37,498 nt of DNA. It comes from Methanosphaera stadtmanae. Lineage in GTDB: Archaea; Methanobacteriota; Methanobacteria; Methanobacteriales; Methanobacteriaceae. This document shows positions 11,558-36,200 of the stretch, piece by piece (positions within the stretch are counted from its first letter, which is position 1; the number at the start of each line of letters is the position of its first letter). Where the stretch lies: NCBI GenBank assembly GCA_015062805.1, contig SUTQ01000021.1, positions 1 to 37,498 on the forward strand, written 5' to 3'. The notes beneath the pieces are model-generated. The model searched no databases. It was given only the letters and a program-made list of their open reading frames with translations, and was not told where the DNA came from. Both the position numbers and the translations under genes were made by a program.

Positions 11558-11780
11558 TCATTACTACTTTTTTTATTTTAGTTAATTATATTCATATAAT
11601 TAGTAAAACAATAATGATATTGTTACTATATTCTTTTTATCAAATTATAATATTAATACTCCCTAAACATTAATTTTTTCTTAAAATTATTTATAATTAT
11701 ACAAATATATTATACAGTGTAATAGATTAATTATGAATTAATTATTATTGTTCAAATAAAAATAAAGGTAGGAATTGTCT

Positions 11781-14132
11781 ATGATAAATAAGAACATCAA
11801 AAGAATGTTATTATTTATTACATTATGCTTTTTACTTATAGGAATTGTAAGTGCAACAGATAATGTATCTGACGATACATCTGGCTCAACACAAACAATT
11901 ACTGAAAAATCAGCAGCAGAAGTAGAAACTGTAGCCGAAGTAGAAGATAATGTAATTGATGATAATAAAGAAGATTTTAAGAAAGACAGTAAAACAGATC
12001 AGATTAAAACTGCGACAAGTGCTAAACAGACAAAAATAACAATAGATCCTATACCAAAGGTATCTGTAGATGATAGCGTATTCATTAGTGGAACTTTTAC
12101 TGATATAAATAATAATCCTTTAAGATACACACACTTAAAAGTAGTTGTAAATGGTGAAGCTTACTACAGTCAAACCAATGACTATGGAGACTACTTTGGA
12201 GAATACTATGCCGAAACACCAGGTACTAAAACAGTTACTGTTTCATGGGCAGGAAATACAGGATATGCACCAACCACAGCAAAAACAACATTCACTGTAG
12301 ATGGACAATATCCAACATACATAAACCTAAACAATATAAAAGATGTAAACCTTGGAGATTCAGTAAGTATCAGTGGATACTACCGTTATGATCAGGCAAA
12401 ACCACTAAGACAAACAGCAATGACAATAAACATAAACGGAGCAAAATACTACGCAAGAACAAACGACAACGGATACTTTAATTATAATTATAAAACGACC
12501 AAAACTGGAACCAACACAGTAACAGTATCATACCCGGGAAACACAAGATTCAAATCAGCAACAGAAACACAAACATTCAACGTTAAATCAGCAGGACCAA
12601 TGGATACATATATTACATTAAACAATATTAACGATGTAAAAAATGGAGAATACGTAACAATTAGTGGATACTACCGTTATGATCAGGCAAAACCACTAAG
12701 ACAAACAGCAATGACAATAAACATAAACGGAGCAAAATACTACGCAAGAACAAACGACAACGGATACTTCACTTATAGCTACAAAGCTACCAAAGCCGGA
12801 ACCAACACAGTAACAGTATCATACTCAGGAAACACAAGATTCAAATCAGCATCCGTTACTAAAACATTCAATGTAAAATCTACAGGACCACAGGATACAT
12901 ACATCCTTTTAAACAATATAAATGATGTTAATAATGGACAATATGTTACAATTAGTGGATATTACTATTATGGGGATTCAAAACCATTAAGACAAACAGC
13001 AATGACAATAAACATAAACGGAGCAAAATACTACGCAAGAACAAACGACAACGGATACTTCACTTATAGCTACAAAACTACCAAAGATGGTTCAAATTCT
13101 GTTACAGTATCATATCCTGGAAACAACAACTTCAAAGCAACAAATTCCACAAAAACATTTAACGTCAAAAGTATTGGTCCTAAAACAACATATATAAAAT
13201 TAAATAATATATATGACTTCTCTTATGATGATTACACCTACATCACGGGATATTATTACTATGGAAACGACATACCCTTAATTTATACACCAATGACAAT
13301 CAATATAAATGATAAAAAATACACTACAAAAACAGATAGTGATGGATTTTTCAGTTTATATTATTCACCTGAAAAAGTTGGAAAGAATACTGTGAATGTA
13401 TCATATCCTGGAAACAATAACTTTAAGGGTGCATCAGCAACAAAAACATTCAACGTAATAATTACAAGTCCTATAGAAACAACGATAGATATGTTTATAA
13501 TGGGTGAATATGAACTTGGAAAATATATGGATATTCATGGATATTATTATTATGGTGATGGCATACCTTTAACACAAACTACTATGACTATAGATGTTGA
13601 AGGTCAAATATATCATGCTAAAACAGATAACAATGGATATTTCAGCTACAAATATAAACCAACCAAATCAGGTCCTAATATAGTTACAGTAACATTTGAT
13701 GGAAACAAAAATTTCAGAAGAGCCTCCTGTGTAAATACTATCATAGTATTGGATCTTACTCCAAAAGTAGTTACATTAAAAAGTTATTCTACCAATTATA
13801 TAGCTGATAGTACTATTGTAGGTTCAGATAACTTTTATAGTTATTATGAAACTAAAACAAATGCTCAAAGTTCTCAAGGAGTATGGGTAGAAAACAGAAA
13901 TGTGGATGCTCAAGTACTTGATGATCTCGCACCAACCAAGAGAATTTTAAGTGCTAAATTCTATTTCCGTAATAGCAATAACCAAATAAAAACAAAAACA
14001 GTTAATGCTCAATATATAGATTTTGTTAAAACATCTTTAATTAGTGGTTATACACCATTTAAAGTTGATGTAACTTATCGTGATATGACAGAACAGGATA
14101 CTGCTGAATGGTATGGACAATTTGAATATTAA
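11781..14132 (+). CDS. Secreted adhesin-like protein with six Ig-like repeats and a unique C-terminal domain
   Basis: The start is ATG 11781 after AGGTAGG (11766-11772); the TTG at 11775 is not needed. A signal peptide spans about residues 1-26 (ending GIVSA), followed by an acidic, Thr-rich linker. Six tandem ~95-residue beta-sandwich repeats then run to about residue 658. Each has the pattern T-x-I-x-L-x-N-I, V-x-I-(S/T)-G-(Y/T), PLRxTxMTININGxKYY, TNDNGYF, TVTVSYPGN and KTFNV, as in archaeal and bacterial Ig-like adhesin repeats. The last ~125 residues are different (GSDNFYSYYE, then GVWVENR, KFYFRNSNN and SGYTPFKVDVTYRD) and recur at the end of the broken gene at 19477. There is no C-terminal membrane helix or sortase motif, so attachment to the wall is unexplained. 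Repeats 2-4 are nearly identical in DNA, a sign of recent duplication or gene conversion. Confidence 0.88.
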   Translation: MINKNIKRMLLFITLCFLLIGIVSATDNVSDDTSGSTQTITEKSAAEVETVAEVEDNVIDDNKEDFKKDSKTDQIKTATSAKQTKITIDPIPKVSVDDSVFISGTFTDINNNPLRYTHLKVVVNGEAYYSQTNDYGDYFGEYYAETPGTKTVTVSWAGNTGYAPTTAKTTFTVDGQYPTYINLNNIKDVNLGDSVSISGYYRYDQAKPLRQTAMTININGAKYYARTNDNGYFNYNYKTTKTGTNTVTVSYPGNTRFKSATETQTFNVKSAGPMDTYITLNNINDVKNGEYVTISGYYRYDQAKPLRQTAMTININGAKYYARTNDNGYFTYSYKATKAGTNTVTVSYSGNTRFKSASVTKTFNVKSTGPQDTYILLNNINDVNNGQYVTISGYYYYGDSKPLRQTAMTININGAKYYARTNDNGYFTYSYKTTKDGSNSVTVSYPGNNNFKATNSTKTFNVKSIGPKTTYIKLNNIYDFSYDDYTYITGYYYYGNDIPLIYTPMTININDKKYTTKTDSDGFFSLYYSPEKVGKNTVNVSYPGNNNFKGASATKTFNVIITSPIETTIDMFIMGEYELGKYMDIHGYYYYGDGIPLTQTTMTIDVEGQIYHAKTDNNGYFSYKYKPTKSGPNIVTVTFDGNKNFRRASCVNTIIVLDLTPKVVTLKSYSTNYIADSTIVGSDNFYSYYETKTNAQSSQGVWVENRNVDAQVLDDLAPTKRILSAKFYFRNSNNQIKTKTVNAQYIDFVKTSLISGYTPFKVDVTYRDMTEQDTAEWYGQFEY
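12372..12769 (+). repeat. Perfect 107-bp direct repeats inside the adhesin gene
   Basis: The 107 bases at 12372-12478 recur without change at 12663-12769, 291 bases (97 codons) away. About 85 bases of the same sequence (from about 12989 to 13074) appear again in the fourth repeat. The flanking parts of each Ig-like repeat differ, so identity is confined to the segment from SGYYRYD to DNGYF. Confidence 0.85.
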
Positions 14133-22460: not shown

Positions 22461-25400
22461 CTAATCACTTGCTTCAAAGCTTTTTGTTGCTTTGTCTCCC
22501 AGATAATTGCTATTTCCTTTGTAGGTTACTGTTACATTTTGTGTTCCCGCACTTGTTGGCGAGTAGGTACATGTGAACATTCCTTTTGTATCCGTTTTTA
22601 TCTGCTGTTCTACGCCGTTTACTTTAACGAATATGTTGCAGTTTTTGTAAATTGTTCCACTGTCGTCGGTTAGTTTACCGGTTATTGTTGTCGGGGTAGC
22701 GACTGTTGTATCGGGAATTTCATCTATTATGAGTTTTGTTGCATGTTTGGTTACTGTTAGTGTTTTCGTTGCGGTAAGCTGAGTTTCTGTAGTTTCATCG
22801 TTGTATGTTGCCGTTACTGTAAAGTTGCCTAATTCTAAAGCTTGTGCTTTATATGTGTATTTTCCATTTTTATCTGTAGTTAGTATGACTGTTTCACCAT
22901 TTATGTTCAATTGTACTTCTGCACCTGTTATGATGTTTCCTTCATAATCTGTCAGCTTTCCTTGGATGGTATAATTGTCCCTGTATGTTACCGGTTTTAT
23001 CGTGAACATAACCAGTTTCATGCCAGATGTTGTAAATGTTGCAGTTGCATTTGAAGCCAGATATTTTGTATTTCCTTTATATTTTACCAGAACTACTTGT
23101 TCTCCTACAGTACTTGTTGTGTATGTTGCCTTGAATATACCTGTACTATATGTTGTTATGTGTTGCTCTTCACCATTCAGGTATACGAATACGTTAACAT
23201 GGCCAAGAGGATTGCCATCAATATCGGTAATCAAACCTGTGATTGTAATGTTTTCATTGCATGTCACGCATGCAATGTCGTTAATCGTGACTTTAGATTC
23301 CCTTTTGTTCACAGTGAATGTTTGTGTTGTGTTACTTGCCTTGTATTTATCTGTTCCTGCATATATTGCAGCAATTGTTTGTTCACCTACCGTTTTAAGG
23401 GTGGTATTGTATTCAAATATACCTCCCCTAGTGGTTACGTTAACAGTTTCATCTCCAATACTTAAGGTAACTACTTGGTTGAATAATCCAACTGAATCTT
23501 CGTTAATCAACATACCACTAATGGTCACATTTGAATTATATTTGGCATCCGTAATTGGATTTAATATTATTGTCGTATCTTTGGCTCCCGTCAATTCTCT
23601 TATTTGTTCCTCAAGATCGTCAATTCTTTCTGATTGACTATTAATCGTGCTGTTTAGTTCTTCATTTTGCTCCGTTATTTCATTGATTTTGTCGTTTTGT
23701 TCATTTACCGTATTATTTAATGTGTTGATGATATCCGATTGTTCTTGAACTGTATTGTTTAATTCATTAATTGTGTTATTCAATGTATTGATTGTGCTGT
23801 TTTGTTCTTGAACAGTATTGTTTAACTCATCAATTGTGGTTGTTTGTTCTTCAACAGTATTATTCAAGTCATTGATTATGATGTTTTGATCTTGTACTAT
23901 ATTGTTTAAGTCATTGATTATGATGGTTTGTTCATTTACTGTATTGTTTAACTCATTAATTTTATTATTCAATATATCGATAATAATGGTTTGATCTTGA
24001 ACAATATTGTGTTGGAATTCTACTTCTTCTTCTAGTTCTTCTATTTTTTCATCTTTATCTATTTCCACGGTGAAATCTATTGTTACTATGGATGCCTTAT
24101 AATCCTCATTTTCTTGGTAGTTAACAGTTATTGTGTAATCACCAAGGCGTAGAGTTTTATCTGTGATTACTCCGCTAGTAGTTTCTTGACTGATGTCTCC
24201 CGTTATCTTGATTGCAGCATCAGGCAGGGGTGTCCTGTAAATATCATCCAGTACGGTTATGTTTATCTGCACATTGCCCTCAGTATTATTAAGAATATCA
24301 TAAATGATAGTGGTGTTTCTTTGTTTTATTATGTTTAAAGTGAACTCTGTTGAACTTGGAGTAACATAATAATCATTGCTAATGTATGTTACGTTTATGA
24401 CATAAGAATTATCTAAATCATTGTTGTAGAGGTTTTTCAATGCCTCATTTAGTATTTCTGTTGAGAACGTGTATCCATCCCTTACATTATGACAACTTAC
24501 AAGTTCCTGGTATTCGTCACCATCCTTTACTCGTATGTCCGCTGTTCCTTTTTCACTTCTAGTATCAGTTATATCTAGTATTATATCATTCTTGACCCCA
24601 CCATAATAATCATAAGCCGTTTTATGTGTTGATATTTCAGATGCTTCAACAATTTTTAAAGTTAATGTATTGGATTGTTGATTGCAGATGGTATAATAAA
24701 CAGAGTATGTGCCTGGTTTTAGATTGGATAACGTGTAAATGTCACTTGTTGTTGTAACGTTTTCTTCACCGTTGATGTAAAGCGTTTTGGTTATTTTTTC
24801 CAGGATATCCATATCATAGTATTCTCGATGTTCTAATTCTATGATAAAGTTTAATGTTACATCCTCACCTGTTTCGAAAGTTTCCTGATTATCATTAACA
24901 GTTAAATTAATGGTTTTAAAACTTATATCTGTAGAATCATAAATGTTCCTTTCAATAGTTTTTTCTCCAAGAATATATAGTGTTTCATTATCATCTGCAG
25001 TATTTCCCGTAAACGTGTTGTTTATTATAATGTTGGTATTACCATCATCACTGCATATAGCTCCTGCTCTACCTGCATGGTTTTCAATGAAAATCGTTTC
25101 AGTCACATTAAACTTAGCATCCACAGAAGATTCGTAGTTGAATATTGCTCCTCCATTACTTACTGCTTCATTATGCTTTAATGTGGAATTGAAAATAGTT
25201 ATATTTCCACATATATTATCTATTGCTCCTCCATCATAGGTTGCAGTGTTGTTTGCTAGTGTGGAATCTTTGATGGTTAAATTTCCAAAATAGATGTATA
25301 TTGCTCCTCCATCATTATTTGCTGTGTTGTTTGCTAGTGTGGAATTTGAAATTGTTAGTGTTTCCCAGTTGAATATTGCTCCTCCACGGTATGCTTGGTT

Positions 25401-25973
25401 GTTTGTGAGTGTGGAGTCTATGATGTTTAGTGTTCCACGGTTATCAATTGCTCCTCCAATGTCTGATTTTGCGTTTGTTATGGTGATGTTCTTTAGAATC
25501 AAAGTACTTACAGTACCTATTAAGAATACTTGTTTTTGATTACCGTTTATTGTTTTTCCGTTTCCATCAATGGTAATTGCTATGCCATTAGTAAATCCTA
25601 TTGTTTCTGTATTTATGATGTTTTCCTGAAGGGTAATTGTGGTATCCTCCGTTGCTTGTGTTATTGTTTGCTTTAGTTGTTCCCATGTTGTTACAGATGT
25701 GGCTTCTTTTGTGTTGTCCCTGTTGTTGTTTTTTTGTATGCTTTGTGTTGCAGTCACATCATTTTCCGGAATTGCGTCCCTTTCTACATATTTTTCTTCA
25801 TTATCCTGTATTGCCATATTATTCATATCTGTTGCCGTCTGTGTTTCCTGCATCGTCTCTTCTGTCATGCTGGCAGGGCCTATGACATCATCCGATACAT
25901 CAGTTGCACTTGCAACTCCCACAAGCAGTACCATTAATGCAACAAAGATTAGCAGCTGTTTTTTTACATTCAT
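22461..25973 (-). CDS. Large secreted adhesin-like protein A: beta-helix, coiled-coil stalk, Ig-like repeats (1170 aa)
   Basis: The start is taken at ATG 25971-25973 (MNVKKQLL), the position conserved in the two sister genes; an upstream TTG at 25991 is in frame. Signal peptide: residues 1 to about 24 (VGVASA). Right-handed beta-helix: about 158-328, with repeats of GGAI-N-x-x-x-L-T-I-x-x-S-T-L-x-N-N-x-A. A beta-rich spacer follows (FETGEDVTLNF and ITDTRSEKGTADIRVKDGDE). A coiled coil spans about 638-793, built from 14-residue units such as NNTVQEQNSTINTL. Four ~90-residue Ig-like domains run from about 795 to the end, closing with SNYLGDKATKSFEASD. It is probably a surface adhesin whose stalk projects the helix. 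No anchoring motif or terminal membrane helix is visible. It is the last of three tandem paralogues sharing a promoter sequence. Confidence 0.88.
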   Translation of the reverse strand: MNVKKQLLIFVALMVLLVGVASATDVSDDVIGPASMTEETMQETQTATDMNNMAIQDNEEKYVERDAIPENDVTATQSIQKNNNRDNTKEATSVTTWEQLKQTITQATEDTTITLQENIINTETIGFTNGIAITIDGNGKTINGNQKQVFLIGTVSTLILKNITITNAKSDIGGAIDNRGTLNIIDSTLTNNQAYRGGAIFNWETLTISNSTLANNTANNDGGAIYIYFGNLTIKDSTLANNTATYDGGAIDNICGNITIFNSTLKHNEAVSNGGAIFNYESSVDAKFNVTETIFIENHAGRAGAICSDDGNTNIIINNTFTGNTADDNETLYILGEKTIERNIYDSTDISFKTINLTVNDNQETFETGEDVTLNFIIELEHREYYDMDILEKITKTLYINGEENVTTTSDIYTLSNLKPGTYSVYYTICNQQSNTLTLKIVEASEISTHKTAYDYYGGVKNDIILDITDTRSEKGTADIRVKDGDEYQELVSCHNVRDGYTFSTEILNEALKNLYNNDLDNSYVINVTYISNDYYVTPSSTEFTLNIIKQRNTTIIYDILNNTEGNVQINITVLDDIYRTPLPDAAIKITGDISQETTSGVITDKTLRLGDYTITVNYQENEDYKASIVTIDFTVEIDKDEKIEELEEEVEFQHNIVQDQTIIIDILNNKINELNNTVNEQTIIINDLNNIVQDQNIIINDLNNTVEEQTTTIDELNNTVQEQNSTINTLNNTINELNNTVQEQSDIINTLNNTVNEQNDKINEITEQNEELNSTINSQSERIDDLEEQIRELTGAKDTTIILNPITDAKYNSNVTISGMLINEDSVGLFNQVVTLSIGDETVNVTTRGGIFEYNTTLKTVGEQTIAAIYAGTDKYKASNTTQTFTVNKRESKVTINDIACVTCNENITITGLITDIDGNPLGHVNVFVYLNGEEQHITTYSTGIFKATYTTSTVGEQVVLVKYKGNTKYLASNATATFTTSGMKLVMFTIKPVTYRDNYTIQGKLTDYEGNIITGAEVQLNINGETVILTTDKNGKYTYKAQALELGNFTVTATYNDETTETQLTATKTLTVTKHATKLIIDEIPDTTVATPTTITGKLTDDSGTIYKNCNIFVKVNGVEQQIKTDTKGMFTCTYSPTSAGTQNVTVTYKGNSNYLGDKATKSFEASD
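23680..24010 (-). repeat. Tandem 42-bp coding repeats of the coiled-coil stalk
   Basis: The region encodes six 14-residue units (pattern N-N-x-(V/I)-x-(E/D)-Q-x-x-x-I-(N/D)-x-(L/I)) plus one half unit (NNTINEL), equal to two heptads per unit. Copies are imperfect in DNA. The sister adhesin at 26398 goes straight from IDKDALINELLAPK to its Ig-like domains, so it has no stalk here. Confidence 0.8.
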
Positions 25974-26001
25974 ATCTAACACATCATTCAAGTTAATTTT
26001 A

Positions 26002-26266: not shown

Positions 26267-26442
26267 ACAATAAATAAGTATTAAAGTCAAGAAAAAAGAT
26301 ACAGTTCGTGCCAACAGTCAACCAACAAAAAAAAAATAATTAAAGAGAAGGAAAAGGGAGATAAATTATAAATTAATCATTTCTTTATCGTTATTCATCA
26401 ATTTACTGTAAAGCTTTTAGTAACTTTGTCTCCCAGATAGTT
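26156..26442. repeat. Direct repeat, copy 1 (3' flank of adhesin B)
   Basis: This segment is almost identical to 31186-31470. The differences seen are a few substitutions and a run of A that is 3 bases longer here. It covers the remnant reading frame, the downstream flank (with AAAGAGAAGGAAAAGGGAGA) and the last ~45 bases of the adhesin gene. Confidence 0.85.
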
Positions 26443-29400
26443 ACTGTTTCCTTTATACGTGACCGTTAAATTTTGTGTTCCAGCACTTGTCGGCGTGTAG
26501 GTACATGTGAATATTCCTTTGGAGTCTGTTTTAACGTGCTGTTGTACACCATTAATTTTAACATATATGTTACAGTTTTTGTATATCGTTCCATTCTCAT
26601 CTGTAAGTTTACCTGTTATTGTTGTTGGGGTACCGACAGTTGTATCAGGAATTTCATCCACAACGATCTTTGTTACATGTTTGGTTACAGTTAATGTTTT
26701 TGTTGCCGTCAGCTGAGTTCCCGTAGCTTCATCGTTGCATTTTGCCGTAACAGTGAAGTTTCCTGTTTTAAGTGCCTGTGCCTTGTATGTGTATTTTCCG
26801 TTTTTGTCCGTTGTCAATGTGATTGTTTCACCGTTGACGGTCAATTGTACTTCAGCACCTGTTACAACCTTTCCTTCATAATCAGTAAGTTTTCCCTGGA
26901 TAGTGTACGTGTCCCTGTATGTCACCGATTTAACCGTGAACATGACAAGTTTCATGCCTGACGTAGTGAATGCTGCAGTTGCATTTGAACTAAGATAGTT
27001 CTTATTACCTTTATAAATTACCAGTACCTCCTGTTCTCCAACTGTAGTGGTTGTGAACGTTGCCTTGAATATTCCAGTACGGTACGTTGTCACGTGCTGC
27101 TGTTCGCCATTCAGATATACGAAAACGTTCACATGACCAAGCGGATTGTCATCAATATCGGTAATCATACCTGTAATTGTAACGTTGTCATTACATGTCA
27201 CGCCTGCAATGTCATTGACCGTGACTTTGGATTCCCTTTTGTTCACCATGAATGTCTGTGTCGTGTTGCTTGCCATGTATTTATCTGTTCCTTCATATCT
27301 AGCGGCAATTGTCTGTTCACCTACCGTTTTTATGGTGGTGTTATATTCAAATATTCCCCCTCTGGTTGTTACTTCTGCTACTTTGTCACCTATGGTTATT
27401 GTTACGACTTGGTTGTATAATCCGATACTATCTTCATTTACAAGACTACCTGTGATTGTAACGTTTGAGTTGTATTTTGCATCATTTACTGGGTCAAGTG
27501 TTATTGTTGTCTTTTTTGGAGCCAACAACTCGTTTATCAATGCATCCTTATCTATTTCAACGGTAAAGTCAAACGTAATGTTGGATGCCTTATAATCATC
27601 ATTTTCTTCATATTTAACAGTTATTGTGTAATCATCAGGGCATAAAGTTGTGTCTGTGATTACTCCGCTGGTAGTTTCCTGTTGGATGTCTCCCGTAATC
27701 TTGATTGCAGCATCCGGTACAGGTGTCCTGTAAATATCATCCAGTACCGTTATGTTAATCTGCACATTGCCCTCCGTGTTATTGATGATATCATATAATA
27801 TACTGGTGTTTCTTTGTTTTATGATGTTTAACATGAACTCTGTTGAACTTGGAAGTGCATATTCACCAGTGTATGTTACGTTTATGGTATAGGAATCTCC
27901 TAATTCATCTGCGTAAAGGTTTTCCAGTGCTTCTTTCAGTGTTTCCGTTGAGAATGTGTATCCGTCCTTTACATTATTACAAATTATGAGTTCCTGGTAC
28001 TTGTCACCATCCTTCACTCGGATGTTTGCTGTTCCTTTTCCCTCAATAGAATCTCTAATGTTAAGGGTTACATAATTTATAACTCCACCATAATAATCAT
28101 AGGAGTCATCTGGTGTTGTTATTTCAGAGTAACCCATCATTTTAAAAGTCACATTATTTGAGTAACCATTAGTGGTATTGTAGTTTACTGTGTATTTACC
28201 AGGACTTAAGTTGGATAGTGAGTAGTTTGTATTGTTTGTTGTAACATTTTCCACGCCATTAACATATAATGTTTTGTTAATTTCCGTTTTTTCTAGGATA
28301 TCCGAGTCATAGTATATTGGATGTTCTAACTCTATGTTAAAGTATAATGTTACATCTTCACCCGTTTCGAAAGTTTCCTTATTATCATTAACTGACAATT
28401 CAATTGCCTTTAAGGAGATGTCCGTGGATATATACTGATTATCATTAAATATTCCATTCCAGTATCCGTGTAAGTCAATTGTTTCCTTGTTGTCTGCTGT
28501 GTTTTCAGAGAATGTGTTACCTGTAAGATTTGCATATCCCAATGAATATATTGCTCCACCCTCACCTGCATGATTCTTTATGAAATTAGAATTAATTACA
28601 TTAATATATTCAGGATATTCGTTGATTGTTACTACTTCTTGATATATGTTGCTTATTGCTCCTCCCTTCTCGTTTGCAGTATTATTTGCTAGTGTGATGT
28701 GTATGATATTTAGTCTTCCAAGGTTGTTGTGTATTGCTCCTCCAATGTTTGCAGTGTTGTTTGCTAGTGTGGAGTCTGTGATTGTTATTGTTCCAGAATT
28801 GTATATTGTTCCTGCATAATGTGTTGCAGTGTTGTTTATTAATGTGGAGTCTGTGATGCTAAGTGTTCCAAAGTTCCATATTGCACCTGCATGTAGTGCA
28901 TTGTTGTCTGTTAGTGTGTTGTGTGTGATACTTAGTGTTCCATGGTTGCGTATTGCTCCTCCATAAAGTGTTGCGATGTTGTTGTTTAGTGAGGAGTCTG
29001 TGATGCAAAGTGTTCCAACGTTGTATATTGCACCTGCATGTTCTGCTATGTTATTTGTTAGTGTTGAGTCTGTGATCGTTAGTGTTCCAGAATTGTATAT
29101 TGCTCCTCCAGAGTCTGACGTGTAGTTTGTTATTGTAACATTATTTAGTGTTAAGTTGTTGTCTGATGCTATTTTGATGAATTGGTATGTGTTATTTCCG
29201 TCGAGTGTTAATCCATTACCGTTTATGATTAAATTTTTAGTTTTGGATTCTTCCCAGGTGATATTTTCTGTAGCATCATAATTCCCTGGGAGCAGGTTGA
29301 TTACATAACTACTACGTTGTTCATTTTGTGCTGTTTTTATTGCTTCCACTAGTTCTGTATAATTATGTACTTCCACATTTGATTTTTTGAGTATGAACCT

Positions 29401-30846
29401 GTTATTGATTGTCTTTGAGTCTGTACCGTTTACTATTATTTCTACGCTATTGCTTTCATTTGGTATTGTATATGTTTCAGCTTCCAAATCACCTATACTG
29501 GTTCCATTGGCTTTTTCTATACCATCCACGATAATACTGTAACCAACAATAGTAATGTACCTATCAGATTTTTTTAATTCTATTTTATTTGTTGTCTCAC
29601 TTATGATGAAGTTATCCGGAGAATTTTTATAAAATGTTGTGTCTGTAATATTATAATTCTCACCCATGCTGTATATTGCTCCCCCATCAGCAGAAGCCGT
29701 CCCATAGCTTGCTGTTGCTATTGCTGTTGCTTGGTTATCCTGTAGTGTGGAGTGGGTGATGGTTAAATTTTCATAGTTGTATATTGCTCCTCCAAGAGCA
29801 TCACCATATTCTCCTGTTGCTGTTGCTTGGTTGTCTTGTAGTGTGGAGTCCATGATGATTAAATTTCCCCAACTGTATATTGCTCCCCCATAAACATAAG
29901 CCATTCTAGCATCTGTTGTTGTTGCATTTCCTTTGTTGTTGGTGAGTGTGGAGTCCGTGATGGTTAAATTTCCCCAACTATATATTGCTCCCCCCTCAGC
30001 ATAAGAAGATGCATCAAGTCCTTCTGCTGTTGCTGTTGCATGGTTGTCTTGTAGTGTGGAGTTTGTTATATATAAATTTCCAATATTGTATATTGCTCCA
30101 CCATCAGCATAAGCACCGGCATTCATTCCTGTTGCTGTTGCTGTTGCTTGGTTATCTTGTATTATAGAGTCTGTGATGGTTAAGTTTCCACTATTGTATA
30201 TTGCTCCCCCATAAGCATAAGTAGCAGATCCTGTTGCTGTTACTTGGTTATTTGTGAATGTGGAGTCCGTGATGCTTAAATTTCCACTATTGTATATTGC
30301 TCCCCCATAAACAGAAGCAACGTACCCTATTCTTGCTGCTTGGGCGTTTGTTATTGTGATATTTTTTAGAACCAAAGTAGATTCACTATTAATAATGAAT
30401 ACTTGGTTTTGGTTTCCATCTATTGTTTTTCCGTTTCCGTCAATGGTAATTGCTATGCCGTTATTAAATGTGATTGTTTCCTCATTTATCATGTTTTCCT
30501 GTAGGGTGATTATTGTGTCTTCTGTTGCATCTGCTATTGTTTGGTTAAGTTCATCCCATGTTGTTACTGCTATGGCTTCCTTAGTGTAGACTTTGTCGAT
30601 GTTTTTTCGTATGTCTTGTGATGCACTTACACCGTTTTCCGAACCTGTATCAGTTTCTACATCATTTTCTTCATTATCTTGTGTTGCTATATTATTCATA
30701 TCTGTTGCAGTCTGTGTTTCCTCTATTGTCTCTTCTGCCATGCATGTAGTGCCTGTGGTATCATCAGATACATCGGTTGCACTTGCAGCTCCAACAAGCA
30801 GCACCATTAAGGCAACAAGTAGCAGCAGCTGTTTTTTTACCTTCAT
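26398..30846 (-). CDS. Large secreted adhesin-like protein B: two beta-helix blocks and Ig-like repeats (about 1480 aa)
   Basis: The start is taken at ATG 30844-30846 (MKVKKQLL); an in-frame GTG lies at 30855. Signal peptide to about residue 24. First beta-helix block at about 160-402, with long turns rich in Ala/Thr (QATATATG, DASSYAEGGAIYSWGNLTI). A linking domain follows (VEVHNYTELVEAIKTAQNEQ, then INLLPGNYDATENITWEESK), and a second beta-helix block at about 565-768 (GGAIYNSGTLTITDSTLTNN). Then come a spacer (FETGEDVTLYF) and four Ig-like domains from about residue 1109 to the end. The first of these is TTITLDPVNDAKYNSNVTIT and the last ends SNYLGDKVTKSFTVN. There is no stalk and no anchor motif. 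It is closely related to A over the N-terminus and Ig-like cassette, and to C over the linking domain. Confidence 0.88.
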   Translation of the reverse strand: MKVKKQLLLLVALMVLLVGAASATDVSDDTTGTTCMAEETIEETQTATDMNNIATQDNEENDVETDTGSENGVSASQDIRKNIDKVYTKEAIAVTTWDELNQTIADATEDTIITLQENMINEETITFNNGIAITIDGNGKTIDGNQNQVFIINSESTLVLKNITITNAQAARIGYVASVYGGAIYNSGNLSITDSTFTNNQVTATGSATYAYGGAIYNSGNLTITDSIIQDNQATATATGMNAGAYADGGAIYNIGNLYITNSTLQDNHATATAEGLDASSYAEGGAIYSWGNLTITDSTLTNNKGNATTTDARMAYVYGGAIYSWGNLIIMDSTLQDNQATATGEYGDALGGAIYNYENLTITHSTLQDNQATAIATASYGTASADGGAIYSMGENYNITDTTFYKNSPDNFIISETTNKIELKKSDRYITIVGYSIIVDGIEKANGTSIGDLEAETYTIPNESNSVEIIVNGTDSKTINNRFILKKSNVEVHNYTELVEAIKTAQNEQRSSYVINLLPGNYDATENITWEESKTKNLIINGNGLTLDGNNTYQFIKIASDNNLTLNNVTITNYTSDSGGAIYNSGTLTITDSTLTNNIAEHAGAIYNVGTLCITDSSLNNNIATLYGGAIRNHGTLSITHNTLTDNNALHAGAIWNFGTLSITDSTLINNTATHYAGTIYNSGTITITDSTLANNTANIGGAIHNNLGRLNIIHITLANNTANEKGGAISNIYQEVVTINEYPEYINVINSNFIKNHAGEGGAIYSLGYANLTGNTFSENTADNKETIDLHGYWNGIFNDNQYISTDISLKAIELSVNDNKETFETGEDVTLYFNIELEHPIYYDSDILEKTEINKTLYVNGVENVTTNNTNYSLSNLSPGKYTVNYNTTNGYSNNVTFKMMGYSEITTPDDSYDYYGGVINYVTLNIRDSIEGKGTANIRVKDGDKYQELIICNNVKDGYTFSTETLKEALENLYADELGDSYTINVTYTGEYALPSSTEFMLNIIKQRNTSILYDIINNTEGNVQINITVLDDIYRTPVPDAAIKITGDIQQETTSGVITDTTLCPDDYTITVKYEENDDYKASNITFDFTVEIDKDALINELLAPKKTTITLDPVNDAKYNSNVTITGSLVNEDSIGLYNQVVTITIGDKVAEVTTRGGIFEYNTTIKTVGEQTIAARYEGTDKYMASNTTQTFMVNKRESKVTVNDIAGVTCNDNVTITGMITDIDDNPLGHVNVFVYLNGEQQHVTTYRTGIFKATFTTTTVGEQEVLVIYKGNKNYLSSNATAAFTTSGMKLVMFTVKSVTYRDTYTIQGKLTDYEGKVVTGAEVQLTVNGETITLTTDKNGKYTYKAQALKTGNFTVTAKCNDEATGTQLTATKTLTVTKHVTKIVVDEIPDTTVGTPTTITGKLTDENGTIYKNCNIYVKINGVQQHVKTDSKGIFTCTYTPTSAGTQNLTVTYKGNSNYLGDKVTKSFTVN

Positions 30847-30871
30847 ATTTAACACATCTCTAAAGTTAATT

Positions 30872-31296: not shown

Positions 31297-31470
31297 ACAA
31301 TAAATAAGTATTAAAGTCAAGAAAAAAGATACAGTTCGTGCCAACAGTCAACCAACAAAAAAAATAATTAAAGAGAAGGAAAAGGGAGATAAATAATAAA
31401 TTAATCATTACTTTATCGTTATTCATCAATTTACTGTAAAGCTTTTAGTAACTTTGTCTCCCAGATAGTT
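31186..31470. repeat. Direct repeat, copy 2 (3' flank of adhesin C)
   Basis: Near-identical to 26156-26442. Identity continues from the flank into the stop-codon end of the adhesin gene (CAATTTACTGTAAAGC on the plus strand) and fades about 45 bases inside it. Confidence 0.85.
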
Positions 31471-34400
31471 GGTGTTTCCTTTGTATGTGACCGTTACATT
31501 TTGTGTTCCGGCACTAGTCGGCGTGTAAGTGCATGTAAATATTCCCTTGGTGTTGGTGTATATGTGTTGTTTTTCGCCATTTATTGTGACGTATATGTTG
31601 CAGTTTTTGTAGGCCGTTCCAAGGTCGTCTGTTAGTTTACCGGATATTGTTGTTGGGGTACCGACCGTTGTATCCTGAATTTCATCAATTATAAGGGTAG
31701 TTGCACGTTTGGTAACCGATAATACTTTGGATACACTTACTTGGTTGTATGGTTCTTCTCCGTTGTATGTTGCCGTTACCGTGAAGTTACCTAATGCTAA
31801 AGCTCGTGCTTTGTAAGTGTATCTTCCTTTCTTATCAGTAGTTAAGGTGACTGTTTCGCCGTTGATTGTTAATTGTACTTCTGCTCCTGTTATGATGTTA
31901 CCTTCGTGGTCAGTCAGTTTTCCCTGGATGGTATAGTTGTCTCTGTACGTTACTGGTTTAACCGTGAACATGACCAGTTTTATGCAGGATGTTGTGAATG
32001 TTGTTGTTGCGTTTGATGCAAGATATTTTGTATTACCTTTGTATTTTACAATTACCTCCTGTTCTCCTACGGTGGTGGTTATGTATGTTGCCTTGAATAT
32101 TCCCGTACGGTATGTTGTCACGTGCTGCTCCTCACCATTAAGGTAAACAAATACGTTTACATGGCCGAGTGGGTTTCCTTCAATATCCGTAATCTTACCC
32201 GTGATTGTTACGTTGTCGTTGCATGTTACGCTTGTGATGTCGTTTACTGTGACTTTGGATTCTTTCCTGTTTATGGTGACTGTTTGTGTTGTGTTGCTTA
32301 TTTCGTATTTGTCGTTTCCGTTATAATTTGCAGTCAGGTTATATTTTCCGGATTTTGAAATTGTCACGCTTGTGTTGAATTCCCCTTTTTCATTGCTTGT
32401 TGCTGTGTACATTTGATTATCAACTATTATATGCACCGTTTCTTGGATTAACGGATTATTGTTTTCATCCTCTAGTGTACCGGTTATTGTAAATGCATCT
32501 CCTACCGTGGAATTTATATTGTCTACCATTAGTTGTGTGCCAAGTTTTTGGGCCAGTATCACTGATGTTCCGGTTACGGCACTGTATTCCCCCTCTTTTC
32601 CATCGTATGATGCCGTGATTTGTGTTTCGTTGCTGTTTATTGTGTATTCTATGCTGGCTATTCCTTCGGGGTTTGTCGTTACGTTGGTTGTCTGATCTAT
32701 TGTGATGTTTTCTCCACATACTGGTGAGTCAAATTGATCTTTTAATATCAATGTTAGGGTTACTTTATCGTTTACCTTAGGGTTACTGCTATTTGTGGAT
32801 ATTGTTATGCTTGTGCTAAGTACATCGTAGAAAGTGTTGCCGGTTATTCTGACATTTTCACCATCAGTATATATTGTTGAACCGTACCTGGAGGTTTCCG
32901 CGTTTATGTTGTCCTCTATTATGGCGTTATCTAAAGATTCTATGACATTTCCCATCTCATTTCCGGTATTGGCTATGAAATTGTTTTCCGTAACGCTTAT
33001 ATTTCCAAAATTGGCTATTGCCGCTCCGTTGGATGCATCATTGTTTCCGAATGTGCTGTTGGTGACAGTCAAATTTCCATAGTTAATCAAGGCCCCTCCC
33101 TGTGATGCTTGGTTGTTTATGAGTGTGGAGTGTGTAATGTCTAGTGTTCCACGATTATCTATTGCTCCACCATTTGTTGCTTTGTAGTTTTTTAACGTGA
33201 TGTTTGTTAATGTTAAGTTTAGTTCAGTGCCTACTTTGATGAACTGGTAAAGGCCTTTTCCATCAAGCGTTAATCCGTTAGCGTTTATGATTAAGTTTTT
33301 AGTTTCTGATTCTTCCCAGGTGATACTTTTTGTAGCGTTATAGTACCCAGGGAGCAAGTTGATTATATAACTGTTATAATTATCATTTTGAGCCTTTTCC
33401 ATTGCTTCTACCAGTTCTGTGTAATTATGTACTTCAACGCTAAATCCTCTAAGCATGTAACGGTTGTTCAATGTTTTTCCATCAGTACCGTTAATCACTA
33501 TCTCCACGTTTTTATATTCATCACCTATCGAAAACTGTGTTAGATTATCTATACCCGTTCCAGTTCCTATTTCCTTACCATCAGCTATGATAATGAATTT
33601 GCCAATGGAAACGAAACTATCCTCTTCTTCTATAACATCTATTCTCTTTTCATCGTTTATGATAATGTTGGCAGGAGCATTGTTATAAAAGGACGTGCCT
33701 GTAATATTATAATTTCTCTTGTTGTTGTATATTGCTCCTCCAAGAGCATTAACATCAACAATTGCATCAAAACCTGTTGCCGTTGCCATTACTTGATTGT
33801 TCTTTAGTGTGCAGTCTGTGATTGTTAAAGTTCGAGTATTGCATATTGCTCCCCCATAAGCATAAGCCTCAACAGTTCTAAATTCTCCTGTTGATGATGC
33901 CGTTGCCGTTGCTTGGTTACTGTTTAGTGTGGTGTCTGTGATTGTTAAAGTTCCTGTATTGTATATTGCTCCTCCACGAGCATGAGCCCCTAGATTACGA
34001 TTTCCTGTTGATGTTGATGTTGCTTGGTTACTGTTTAGTGTGGTGTCTGTGATAGTTACACTTCCATACAAGTTGGATATTGCTCCTCCAAGAGCATCAA
34101 CATATGTAAATTCTCCCGTTGCTGTTGTTGTTGCTTGGTTGTTGTTGAGTGTGGAGCTTGTGATAGTTACACTTCCATACAAGGTGCGTATTGCTCCCCC
34201 ATCTTTTGCAGTATTATTGTTTAGTGTGGTGTCTGTGATGGTTAAATTTCCATAAGAGTTGTATATTGCTCCTCCACTTGTTGCTTGGTTGTTGATGAGT
34301 GTGGAGTCTATGATGGTTAAATTTCCCTCGTTGTATATTGCTCCTCCATCTTCTGCTTCGGCGTTTGTTATTGTGATATTTTTTAGAACTAAAGAAGATC

Positions 34401-36174
34401 CACTATTAATATGAAATACCTGATTTTGCATTCCGTTTATCGTTTGTCCATTACCGTCAATCGTAATGGTTATCCCCGGTTTATCCAATGTAATTGTTTC
34501 CAGTATATTGTATGGTAATCCTTCTTCTAGTTTTAGGGTCATATCCATTGTTGCATTTTCTATTGTATCAATTAAGTTCTGATATGTTACGTCTATCGTA
34601 TCTGATAGTATGTATTCATTATTGGTTATATTAGTACCGTTGACTATCAGTTTAACAAGATGATTACCATCAGAAACATCACAATAAGCTAGTGGATGGG
34701 GAATTGCTGCGATTTCATAGAGCGGACCATTATAAATGTCTTTACCATCTACTATTACGGCTATATTGCTAACGTTGATGTAAGTACCATTTTCTTCCAG
34801 TTTTATGTAGTTATCCTGGTCTATGAAGAATTTTGCCGGAGTGTTTTTATAAAAAGTTGTGTCTGTAACATTATAACTACCCTCTCTGCAGTCTATTGCT
34901 CCATCCCACCAGTATGCACTGTTGTTGTTGAATCGTGTGTTGGTAACTGTCAAAGTTTCACCACCTCTGATTGCTCCACCAAAATTGTCTGCATGGTTAT
35001 TGTTGAATTCAGAGTCCGTCACAGTTAAATTACGACTATTACTGATGGCTCCACCGTAACCACCAATCATCATCAAACCAAATAGCTCATCTTCAATATA
35101 TAGGCCATGTGCATTGTTGTTGTTAAATTGTGAGTTGGTAACAGTTAAAATACCACCACCATCGATTGCTCCACCCACCCGATCTGCGGTGTTGTTGTTG
35201 AATATACTATTCATCACGCTTGATATCCCGTCTTGATTTATAATAGAACCGGCATCACCGTTTAGATTTTTAAAACCAGGATAGTTGATTGCTCCACCAA
35301 AATTGTATGCGTGGTTGTTGTTGAATTCTGTGTTATCCACAGTGAAAATATTATATTGAGTATAGATTGCCCCACCATAGTCTGCGGTGTTGTTGTTGAA
35401 TCGTGTGTTGTTCACGATTAAAGAACCCCCATAAATTGCTCCACCTAGTCCAACATCGTTGGCGGATAGGTTATCAACATGTGCTGTGTTGTTGTTGAAT
35501 TCACTGTTATCCACAATTAAGGTATCATAATTCCAAATTGCTCCAGCAAACAGTTCTGCGCGGTTGTTGTTGAATCGTGTGTTGTTCAGGATTAAAGTAT
35601 CGCGATTTATGATTGCTCCACCACCAGTTAATTGAGAACCATCATAAAGAGAAGGGGCAGCAGTACAGTTGTTGACTGTGAGGTTGTTGATTGTAACCTC
35701 CATATATTGATCTATATCCAAGAAGAAATGTCTGTGGTCTCCATCTATAGTTTTTCCTTCCCCATTGATAGTTACATAAGCACGAACACCAAAGTTTAGA
35801 TTAGATTTAAGATGTATACTATCGTCAAGTTTTATGTTATCTTTAATATTGACTGTAATATATTCATCATTTATATTTGTTAATACCTCACGTAATTCCT
35901 GATAGGTTTCCACGTCATATGATGATGCAGTTTTGAGAGTTTTCTCTTCCCGCGTTATCTTATTGATTTTTTGTTCTGCCTTGTTTTTTTCCACATCCAT
36001 TGTGGGTGTAGTTGTTTCTTCCATCGCTACTTCTTCCTGTGCTGACGTATCCTCAGCTATACTTTCAGGCGTATCTGAGCCTATTGTATCGTTTGATACG
36101 TCGGTTGCACTTGCAGCTCCCATAAGCAGTAGCATTAATGCAACAAAAATCAGCAGCTGTTTTTTTACCTTCAT
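31426..36174 (-). CDS. Large secreted adhesin-like protein C: three beta-helix blocks and Ig-like repeats (about 1580 aa)
   Basis: The start is taken at ATG 36172-36174 (MKVKKQLL) with the conserved leader. Signal peptide to about residue 24, then an acidic linker. Three parallel beta-helix blocks follow: about 158-438 (units such as LTVTDSEFNNNHADNFGGAI), about 595-818 (LTITDTTLNSNQATATA), and about 995-1098 (GGAIDNRGTLDITHSTLINN). They are separated by small domains (IAVIVDGKDIYNG; VEVHNYTELVEAMEKAQNDN). From about 1125 an invasin-like Ig domain (NPKVNDKVTLTLILKDQFDS) is followed by four ~90-residue Ig-like domains ending TNYLGDKVTKSFTVN. It is the first of the three tandem adhesins in the direction of transcription. 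The beta-helix is the likely ligand-binding face; its target and its attachment to the cell are unknown. Confidence 0.88.
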   Translation of the reverse strand: MKVKKQLLIFVALMLLLMGAASATDVSNDTIGSDTPESIAEDTSAQEEVAMEETTTPTMDVEKNKAEQKINKITREEKTLKTASSYDVETYQELREVLTNINDEYITVNIKDNIKLDDSIHLKSNLNFGVRAYVTINGEGKTIDGDHRHFFLDIDQYMEVTINNLTVNNCTAAPSLYDGSQLTGGGAIINRDTLILNNTRFNNNRAELFAGAIWNYDTLIVDNSEFNNNTAHVDNLSANDVGLGGAIYGGSLIVNNTRFNNNTADYGGAIYTQYNIFTVDNTEFNNNHAYNFGGAINYPGFKNLNGDAGSIINQDGISSVMNSIFNNNTADRVGGAIDGGGILTVTNSQFNNNNAHGLYIEDELFGLMMIGGYGGAISNSRNLTVTDSEFNNNHADNFGGAIRGGETLTVTNTRFNNNSAYWWDGAIDCREGSYNVTDTTFYKNTPAKFFIDQDNYIKLEENGTYINVSNIAVIVDGKDIYNGPLYEIAAIPHPLAYCDVSDGNHLVKLIVNGTNITNNEYILSDTIDVTYQNLIDTIENATMDMTLKLEEGLPYNILETITLDKPGITITIDGNGQTINGMQNQVFHINSGSSLVLKNITITNAEAEDGGAIYNEGNLTIIDSTLINNQATSGGAIYNSYGNLTITDTTLNNNTAKDGGAIRTLYGSVTITSSTLNNNQATTTATGEFTYVDALGGAISNLYGSVTITDTTLNSNQATSTSTGNRNLGAHARGGAIYNTGTLTITDTTLNSNQATATASSTGEFRTVEAYAYGGAICNTRTLTITDCTLKNNQVMATATGFDAIVDVNALGGAIYNNKRNYNITGTSFYNNAPANIIINDEKRIDVIEEEDSFVSIGKFIIIADGKEIGTGTGIDNLTQFSIGDEYKNVEIVINGTDGKTLNNRYMLRGFSVEVHNYTELVEAMEKAQNDNYNSYIINLLPGYYNATKSITWEESETKNLIINANGLTLDGKGLYQFIKVGTELNLTLTNITLKNYKATNGGAIDNRGTLDITHSTLINNQASQGGALINYGNLTVTNSTFGNNDASNGAAIANFGNISVTENNFIANTGNEMGNVIESLDNAIIEDNINAETSRYGSTIYTDGENVRITGNTFYDVLSTSITISTNSSNPKVNDKVTLTLILKDQFDSPVCGENITIDQTTNVTTNPEGIASIEYTINSNETQITASYDGKEGEYSAVTGTSVILAQKLGTQLMVDNINSTVGDAFTITGTLEDENNNPLIQETVHIIVDNQMYTATSNEKGEFNTSVTISKSGKYNLTANYNGNDKYEISNTTQTVTINRKESKVTVNDITSVTCNDNVTITGKITDIEGNPLGHVNVFVYLNGEEQHVTTYRTGIFKATYITTTVGEQEVIVKYKGNTKYLASNATTTFTTSCIKLVMFTVKPVTYRDNYTIQGKLTDHEGNIITGAEVQLTINGETVTLTTDKKGRYTYKARALALGNFTVTATYNGEEPYNQVSVSKVLSVTKRATTLIIDEIQDTTVGTPTTISGKLTDDLGTAYKNCNIYVTINGEKQHIYTNTKGIFTCTYTPTSAGTQNVTVTYKGNTNYLGDKVTKSFTVN

Positions 36175-36200
36175 ATTTAACACATCTCTAAAGTAATTTT

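Follow-up and report, generated by a model that had tools for sequence, protein, structure and literature searches.

Adhesin-like proteins of Methanosphaera with a predicted coiled-coil stalk whose length varies in heptad steps

Introduction

What joins the two halves of a methanogen surface adhesin, and how can one of two sister proteins carry some 150 residues at a point where the other has a short linker? Adhesin-like proteins (ALPs) account for over 10% of the genomes of two gut methanogens studied (PMC11532034). The window, i.e. the whole stretch of 37,498 nucleotides analysed here, is the whole of one contig (C2) of a Methanosphaera stadtmanae genome, the source genome below, and encodes three such proteins, all on the minus strand. 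An earlier note on this DNA had proposed that one of them, A, carries a coiled-coil stalk of 14-residue repeats that is absent from its sister B, and that changes in the number of 42-bp units would alter the distance between beta-helix and cell. We consider it quite probable, taking the account as a whole, that the segment is a coiled-coil rod joining the halves of the adhesin, that such a rod is usual in the family, that its length changes by heptads and that it has collapsed in B.

Results

Domain organisation of adhesin A

The features of the three proteins are as follows.

22461..25991, minus strand: adhesin-like protein A, 1176 residues (open frame, translation, Pfam Chlam_PMP and Big_3_5 above cut-off)
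26398..30855, minus strand: adhesin-like protein B, 1485 residues, sister of A (translation; tree support 97/95)
31426-36183, minus strand: third adhesin-like protein
25905..25973, minus strand: N-terminal hydrophobic segment of A, MNVKKQLLIFVALMVLLVGVASA (19-residue hydropathy 2.39, the maximum of A)
24957..25634, minus strand: beta-helix region of A, with Chlamydia_PMP-type repeats (PF02415, best stretch residues 216-233); limits approximate, placed by eye
24051..24929, minus strand: pre-coil domains of A, conserved in relatives
about 24051-24308, minus strand: last pre-coil domain of A, Ig-like, with FTVEIDKD at its end (AlphaFold2: all beta-strand)
23592..24050, minus strand: predicted coiled-coil stalk of A, residues 648-800 (period 3.5, AlphaFold2 helix, heptad-quantised length)
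23787..23961, minus strand: core of the 42-bp (14-residue) tandem repeat in A (TRF, 4.2 copies, 78% matches)
23610..23627, minus strand: RIDDLE, residues 789-794 of A (fit to an R-h-x-x-h-E motif)
22464..23576, minus strand: C-terminal Ig-like array of A (PF16640 Big_3_5, best stretch residues 1000-1081)

From the N- to the C-terminus, A thus consists of a hydrophobic segment, a beta-helix, further domains, an Ig-like domain, the stalk and an Ig-like array. With PF02415 and PF16640 above cut-off and a hydrophobic N-terminal segment, it fits a methanogen adhesin-like protein; the Pfam search placed PF16640 in four stretches across the whole protein, and the family search gave zero matches to PF18998 in the source genome. 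Elsewhere in the window, the protein encoded at 11775-14132 contains about three 291-bp (97-residue) repeats with 84% matches, at 12328-13309, in an Ig-like Big_3_5 region. These are far longer than the stalk repeats of A and are also a candidate for length variation.

The stalk is predicted to be a coiled coil

The stalk of A comprises 153 residues, among which proline, glycine and cysteine are all absent. Its hydrophobic residues peak at a period of 3.5 with a power of 5.1, the highest value in 10,000 shuffles being 2.1, and in 98-residue windows the power at this period is at most 0.73 in A outside the stalk, 0.97 in B and 1.59 in the third adhesin. The heptad phase is continuous through 22 heptads. 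Position a is occupied by Ile or Val and position d by Leu or Gln, with a single Ile among the latter; the core is imperfect in that one a position is Asn and many d positions are Gln. AlphaFold2, given residues 555-905 as a single chain together with seven aligned relatives, B included, returned one unbroken 156-residue helix between two beta domains, with a pLDDT of 95-98 at model residues 101-230 and of 81-92 at the helix ends, although the program readily yields long helices for sequences of this type. The same procedure applied to B gave a 7-residue helix, with a pLDDT below 50 over most of it. The heptad core pattern and the helical fold of the monomer model together make the segment a predicted coiled coil, as had been suggested, at the level of prediction. 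A structure search with the model of A returned mostly Ig-like, FN3-like and complement macroglobulin domains among the best 50 of 1691 matches; many rows have an rmsd above 100 because the ends of the model lie far apart, so that they are uninformative on the stalk.

A low-complexity spacer rich in Asn, Thr, Gln and Glu might instead be disordered or heavily glycosylated, the heptads being a by-product of codon usage or repeats. N-X-S/T sequons are indeed frequent: the stalk of A has 8, compared with 5.3 in shuffles that preserve the register (p 0.033), and of 19 stalks, which are not independent, 11 show an excess at p<0.05 without correction. An STT3-family protein is also encoded in the source genome, at G000:C41. 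A disordered segment would nevertheless be hard to reconcile with a core pattern held through up to 51 heptads, with a helix predicted at high confidence in a sequence devoid of proline and glycine, and with lengths that stay multiples of seven across differing repeat units, and we regard this explanation as very improbable.

Stalk length changes in steps of one heptad

The pre-coil domains of A were matched in 14 of 20 genomes of the genus (E up to 1e-3), although in 5 of these no value is better than 1e-7 and the match may be to Ig domains alone. The pre-coil Ig domain together with the stalk start was matched in 13 of 138 family genomes, belonging to 3 of 17 genera (E up to 1e-8); three of the 13, G037, G073 and G074, lie outside the genus. 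The 28 places found in this way, plus C38:74k, make up 29 copies; weaker pre-coil matches and places matching upstream domains only (e.g. G008:96k and 107k) are excluded from these counts. Stalk length, taken from the Asp after EIDK or its equivalent (Asn in C28) to the last core Leu, was measured in 21 copies. The others are G007:C14 (scaffold gap), G008:330k (coil-less), G010:C66 and G019 (contig end), G016 (fragment), G037 (near copy of C28, of equal length), G073 (not resolved) and G074 (stutter, other C-terminal domain).

Each of the 21 copies measured has a stalk of precisely 7k residues, with k = 1 (B), 2, 7 (four copies), 12, 13 (two copies), 17, 18, 19, 20, 22 (A), 24 (nominal, in a frame-shifted copy), 25, 33, 36 (two copies), 37 and 51 (C28). 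When copies are classed by the linker past the last core Leu (5, 6, 7 or 9 residues), the classes hold 5, 8, 4 and 2 distinct lengths, respectively, which are congruent modulo 7 within each class. For independent and uniform lengths, such agreement would have a probability near 7 to the power minus 15. The lengths are neither: the 21 copies share ancestry, and both the linker classes and the last core Leu were picked with the lengths already in view. As a weak control, the pre-coil stretches of the tree rows measure 288, 290, 291, 293, 294 and 295 residues (one was cut to 237) and lie off any grid of 7. Steps of 14 and 21 residues were rejected: lengths modulo 14 agree within just one of the four linker classes, and the 21-residue step gives mixed lengths in all four. 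The common step is therefore the heptad (21 bp) rather than the 42-bp unit, though A itself consists of 42-bp units. Stalk length varies strongly among paralogues and species, from 1 to 51 heptads, in steps half the size of the 42-bp unit that the earlier note had in mind.

In the 19 stalks of at least 46 residues, pooled position a is Ile in 60%, Leu in 20%, Asn in 11% and Val in 8%, and position d is Leu in 63%, Ala in 15% and Gln in 12%. The heptad rule is not universal, since G008:C1:330k has the pre-coil Ig domain and no coil, and G074, from another genus, appears, by our reading, to have a stutter close to where the stalk begins. The architecture of G074 is similar to that of A, but its C-terminal domain is different and lysine-rich.

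Several copies call for a remark of their own. In the source genome, C38:74k and C38:86k are decayed A-related copies with in-frame stops, whose 7 and 2 heptads fit the 7k series. A gene of G037 (contig C51), from another genus, is 97.1% identical over 1890 bp to the C28 adhesin of the source genome, and may reflect a recent transfer or a mis-binned contig. At about 1224550 of G011:C1, in a two-contig assembly, a stalk-bearing adhesin is frame-shifted at an A run at the very start of the stalk; the run may serve as an on/off switch, or the shift may be an error of sequencing.

Repeat units and allelic variation

The 14-residue repeats described for A are real; the limits of the segment, given earlier as 23593-24060, are corrected to 23592-24050. 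The 42-bp repeat is degenerate, with a best identity of 0.88 between adjacent units, a longest exact repeat of 18 bp and 78% matches by TRF. Near-identical duplicated units differ from gene to gene (e.g. 21, 42, 105 and 126 bp). That the unit differs while the heptad step persists argues for selection acting on the coiled-coil register rather than for the influence of any one repeat; slippage of units alone could also produce multiples of 7.

Could the number of 42-bp units in A itself vary from strain to strain and so tune the distance between the beta-helix and the cell? Such tuning would extend our main reading rather than compete with it. Relatives range from 1 to 51 heptads, and tandem units are identical in G018:C129 (126 bp at 100%) and in two genes of G008 (42 bp at 100%), which suggests recent in-frame growth by duplication there. 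Two genes on one contig of G010 have stalks that differ by 42 residues (6 heptads). The divergence between adjacent units of A points the other way, and in the sole allele pair available, which belongs to another paralogue (C28 and G037:C51), 16 of 364 stalk residues differ while the length is equal. The search for another allele of A gave none in the 138 family genomes, where the best match outside the source genome is 75%, and none in one scan of viral contigs. A scan of genome contigs gave 6 loci, all in Methanosphaera MAGs and 38-55% identical in the best segment, in a collection from which records very near the source genome may be missing. N-terminal anchors, as published for methanogen ALPs (PMC11532034), would moreover place the beta-helix near the cell. 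Tuning of A between strains thus seems unlikely.

Sister B has most likely lost most of its stalk

The flanks of the stalk align between A and B, as the earlier note had stated, and the short linker that it saw in B is there. The stalk is not wholly missing from B, however, for one heptad is retained:

27511..27546, minus strand: putative stalk remnant of B, DALINELLAPKK, one heptad plus linker (sequence; AlphaFold2 7-residue helix)

By our reading of the sequences, this single heptad resembles both ends of the stalk of A. The stalk of A exceeds that of B by 147 residues, i.e. 21 heptads, or 10.5 of the 14-residue units.

The tree joins A to B as its sister (support 97/95); 7 of the 13 inner branches are open, most deep forks are not resolved, and G011:C2:10k was left out by the coverage filter. 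Of the other 14 rows, 12 have at least 7 heptads, G019 begins a coil and then reaches the contig end, and C42, from the source genome, has neither the pre-coil Ig domain nor the stalk. Loss in B is the shorter account. The stalk is most likely, from sequence comparison, the usual state in the Methanosphaera family, B having lost most of its own. A gain in A after the A-B split could appeal to the two stalkless homologues, C42 and G008:330k. It would leave unexplained why 12 other rows carry a stalk at the same point, with the start pattern (D/N)-x-K-I-x-(E/D/Q)-L as in A, and why the remnant of B fits the stalk of A at both ends; we hold a gain to be highly improbable.

Orientation of the stalk

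The N-terminal hydrophobic segment of A could be either a signal peptide or a membrane anchor, and the protein is presumably secreted. The ASA-T junction suggests a cleaved signal peptide, by a rule that we presume to apply here. Beyond residue 60, the 19-residue hydropathy of A does not exceed 1.35. A scan of eight proteins, namely seven family members and the third adhesin, gave no strongly hydrophobic window after the N-terminal region, the highest value being this 1.35 in A, so that a C-terminal membrane segment is not seen in these eight. For 39 of 42 M. stadtmanae ALPs, Gupta and Seedorf assigned one anchor only, at the N-terminus (PMC11532034). If the segment is a cleaved signal, attachment to the wall would have to fall to the C-terminal Ig array, with the beta-helix outermost, a case presupposed by the picture of a beta-helix standing off the cell. 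If it is an anchor, the beta-helix would lie nearest the cell and the stalk would project the Ig array.

Discussion

Proposed mechanism

In the reading we prefer, the stalk would be a stiff helical rod linking the N-terminal beta-helix half of the adhesin to the C-terminal Ig-like half, and it probably bundles two or three chains. Whole heptads would be gained or lost as repeats are duplicated or deleted in register, so that the spacing of the domains changes while the core stays intact, and B would represent a near-total collapse, from 22 heptads to 1. With a helix rise of 0.1485 nm per residue, the predicted rod measures about 22-23 nm in A, about 1 nm in B and about 53 nm in C28, all three in the source genome.

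A different emphasis, compatible with a coiled coil, would make oligomerisation the main function, with a near-neutral length drifting by repeat recombination. The very broad range of lengths would suit such drift, as would the recurrence of an Ile/Leu core despite different repeat units. Near the end of the stalk of A, RIDDLE matches what we take to be the R-h-x-x-h-E trimerisation motif, a match that could be due to chance. A B protein reduced to one heptad would on this reading lose its function, yet the rest of its frame is open, and coiled coils conserve their length on average (PMC5082667). We regard this emphasis as possible, though less likely than not.

Comparison with known systems

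Like A, methanogen ALPs have a hydrophobic segment at the N-terminus, followed by a beta-helix and Ig-like (archaeal big) domains, and their ABD repeats have been compared with bacterial stalk domains (PMC11532034). The main text of that paper contains no word beginning with "coil" (PMC11532034). The open-licence literature searched gave no account of a coiled-coil stalk in a methanogen ALP, and the stalk is apparently undescribed in these proteins.

The streptococcal M protein, a Gram-positive wall-anchored fibre, resembles A by description, being a coiled-coil surface protein whose size is set by repeats in its gene and reportedly varies by intragenic recombination. Single heptads do not fold alone, and adjacent 42-bp units of A are at most 0.88 identical. 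This separates A from the Periscope Proteins, in which repeat number likewise alters the length of a surface rod, but which are defined by monomeric, individually folding and highly identical repeats; a review of them explicitly leaves out multimeric coiled-coil stalks such as those of trimeric autotransporter adhesins (TAAs) (PMC8201768, PMC9704523). The TAAs YadA and BadA do have a head, a coiled-coil stalk and member-specific lengths, as here, and their defining element is a homologous C-terminal anchor (PMC2483945). The anchor family is absent among the 15 Pfam matches of A (E up to 0.1), so that A is not a TAA by that test; unlike TAAs, A is archaeal and its stalk sits between Ig-like domains.

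The stalk of A also gave a weak, low-complexity sequence match (E 3.8e-4) to 8qox chain B, which we take to be SlaB of Sulfolobus acidocaldarius, a match that may reflect convergence. SlaB is the stalk protein of an S-layer and forms a trimeric coiled coil; like A, it belongs to an archaeal cell surface and combines beta-sandwich domains with a long coiled coil, but it has three beta-sandwich domains followed by a coil inserted in the membrane at its end (PMC10903991). A differs in its beta-helix and in the Ig-like domains beyond the coil, and no C-terminal membrane insertion of the SlaB type was seen in it (hydropathy maximum 1.35 past residue 60). By analogy, the stalk of A would work like those of TAAs or SlaB, yet by the tests made A is a member of neither group.

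Significance

In the PS2 S-layer protein of Corynebacterium, a coiled-coil segment acts as a cell-surface spacer, as proposed here, but its length is highly conserved among homologues (PMC12021427), whereas the Methanosphaera stalk ranges from 1 to 51 heptads. This roughly fifty-fold range, covered in heptad steps, stands against the length conservation usual in coiled coils (PMC5082667); in the Methanosphaera adhesins, unlike PS2 (PMC12021427) and the average coiled coil, length is the variable feature. We suggest tentatively, as a rather doubtful extension, that these adhesins may be archaeal coiled-coil rods of variable length, in which repeat recombination would provide graded lengths of reach within one cell. 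Stalk length is in any case a simple, measurable trait with which display, anchoring and strain variation of these proteins can be tested.
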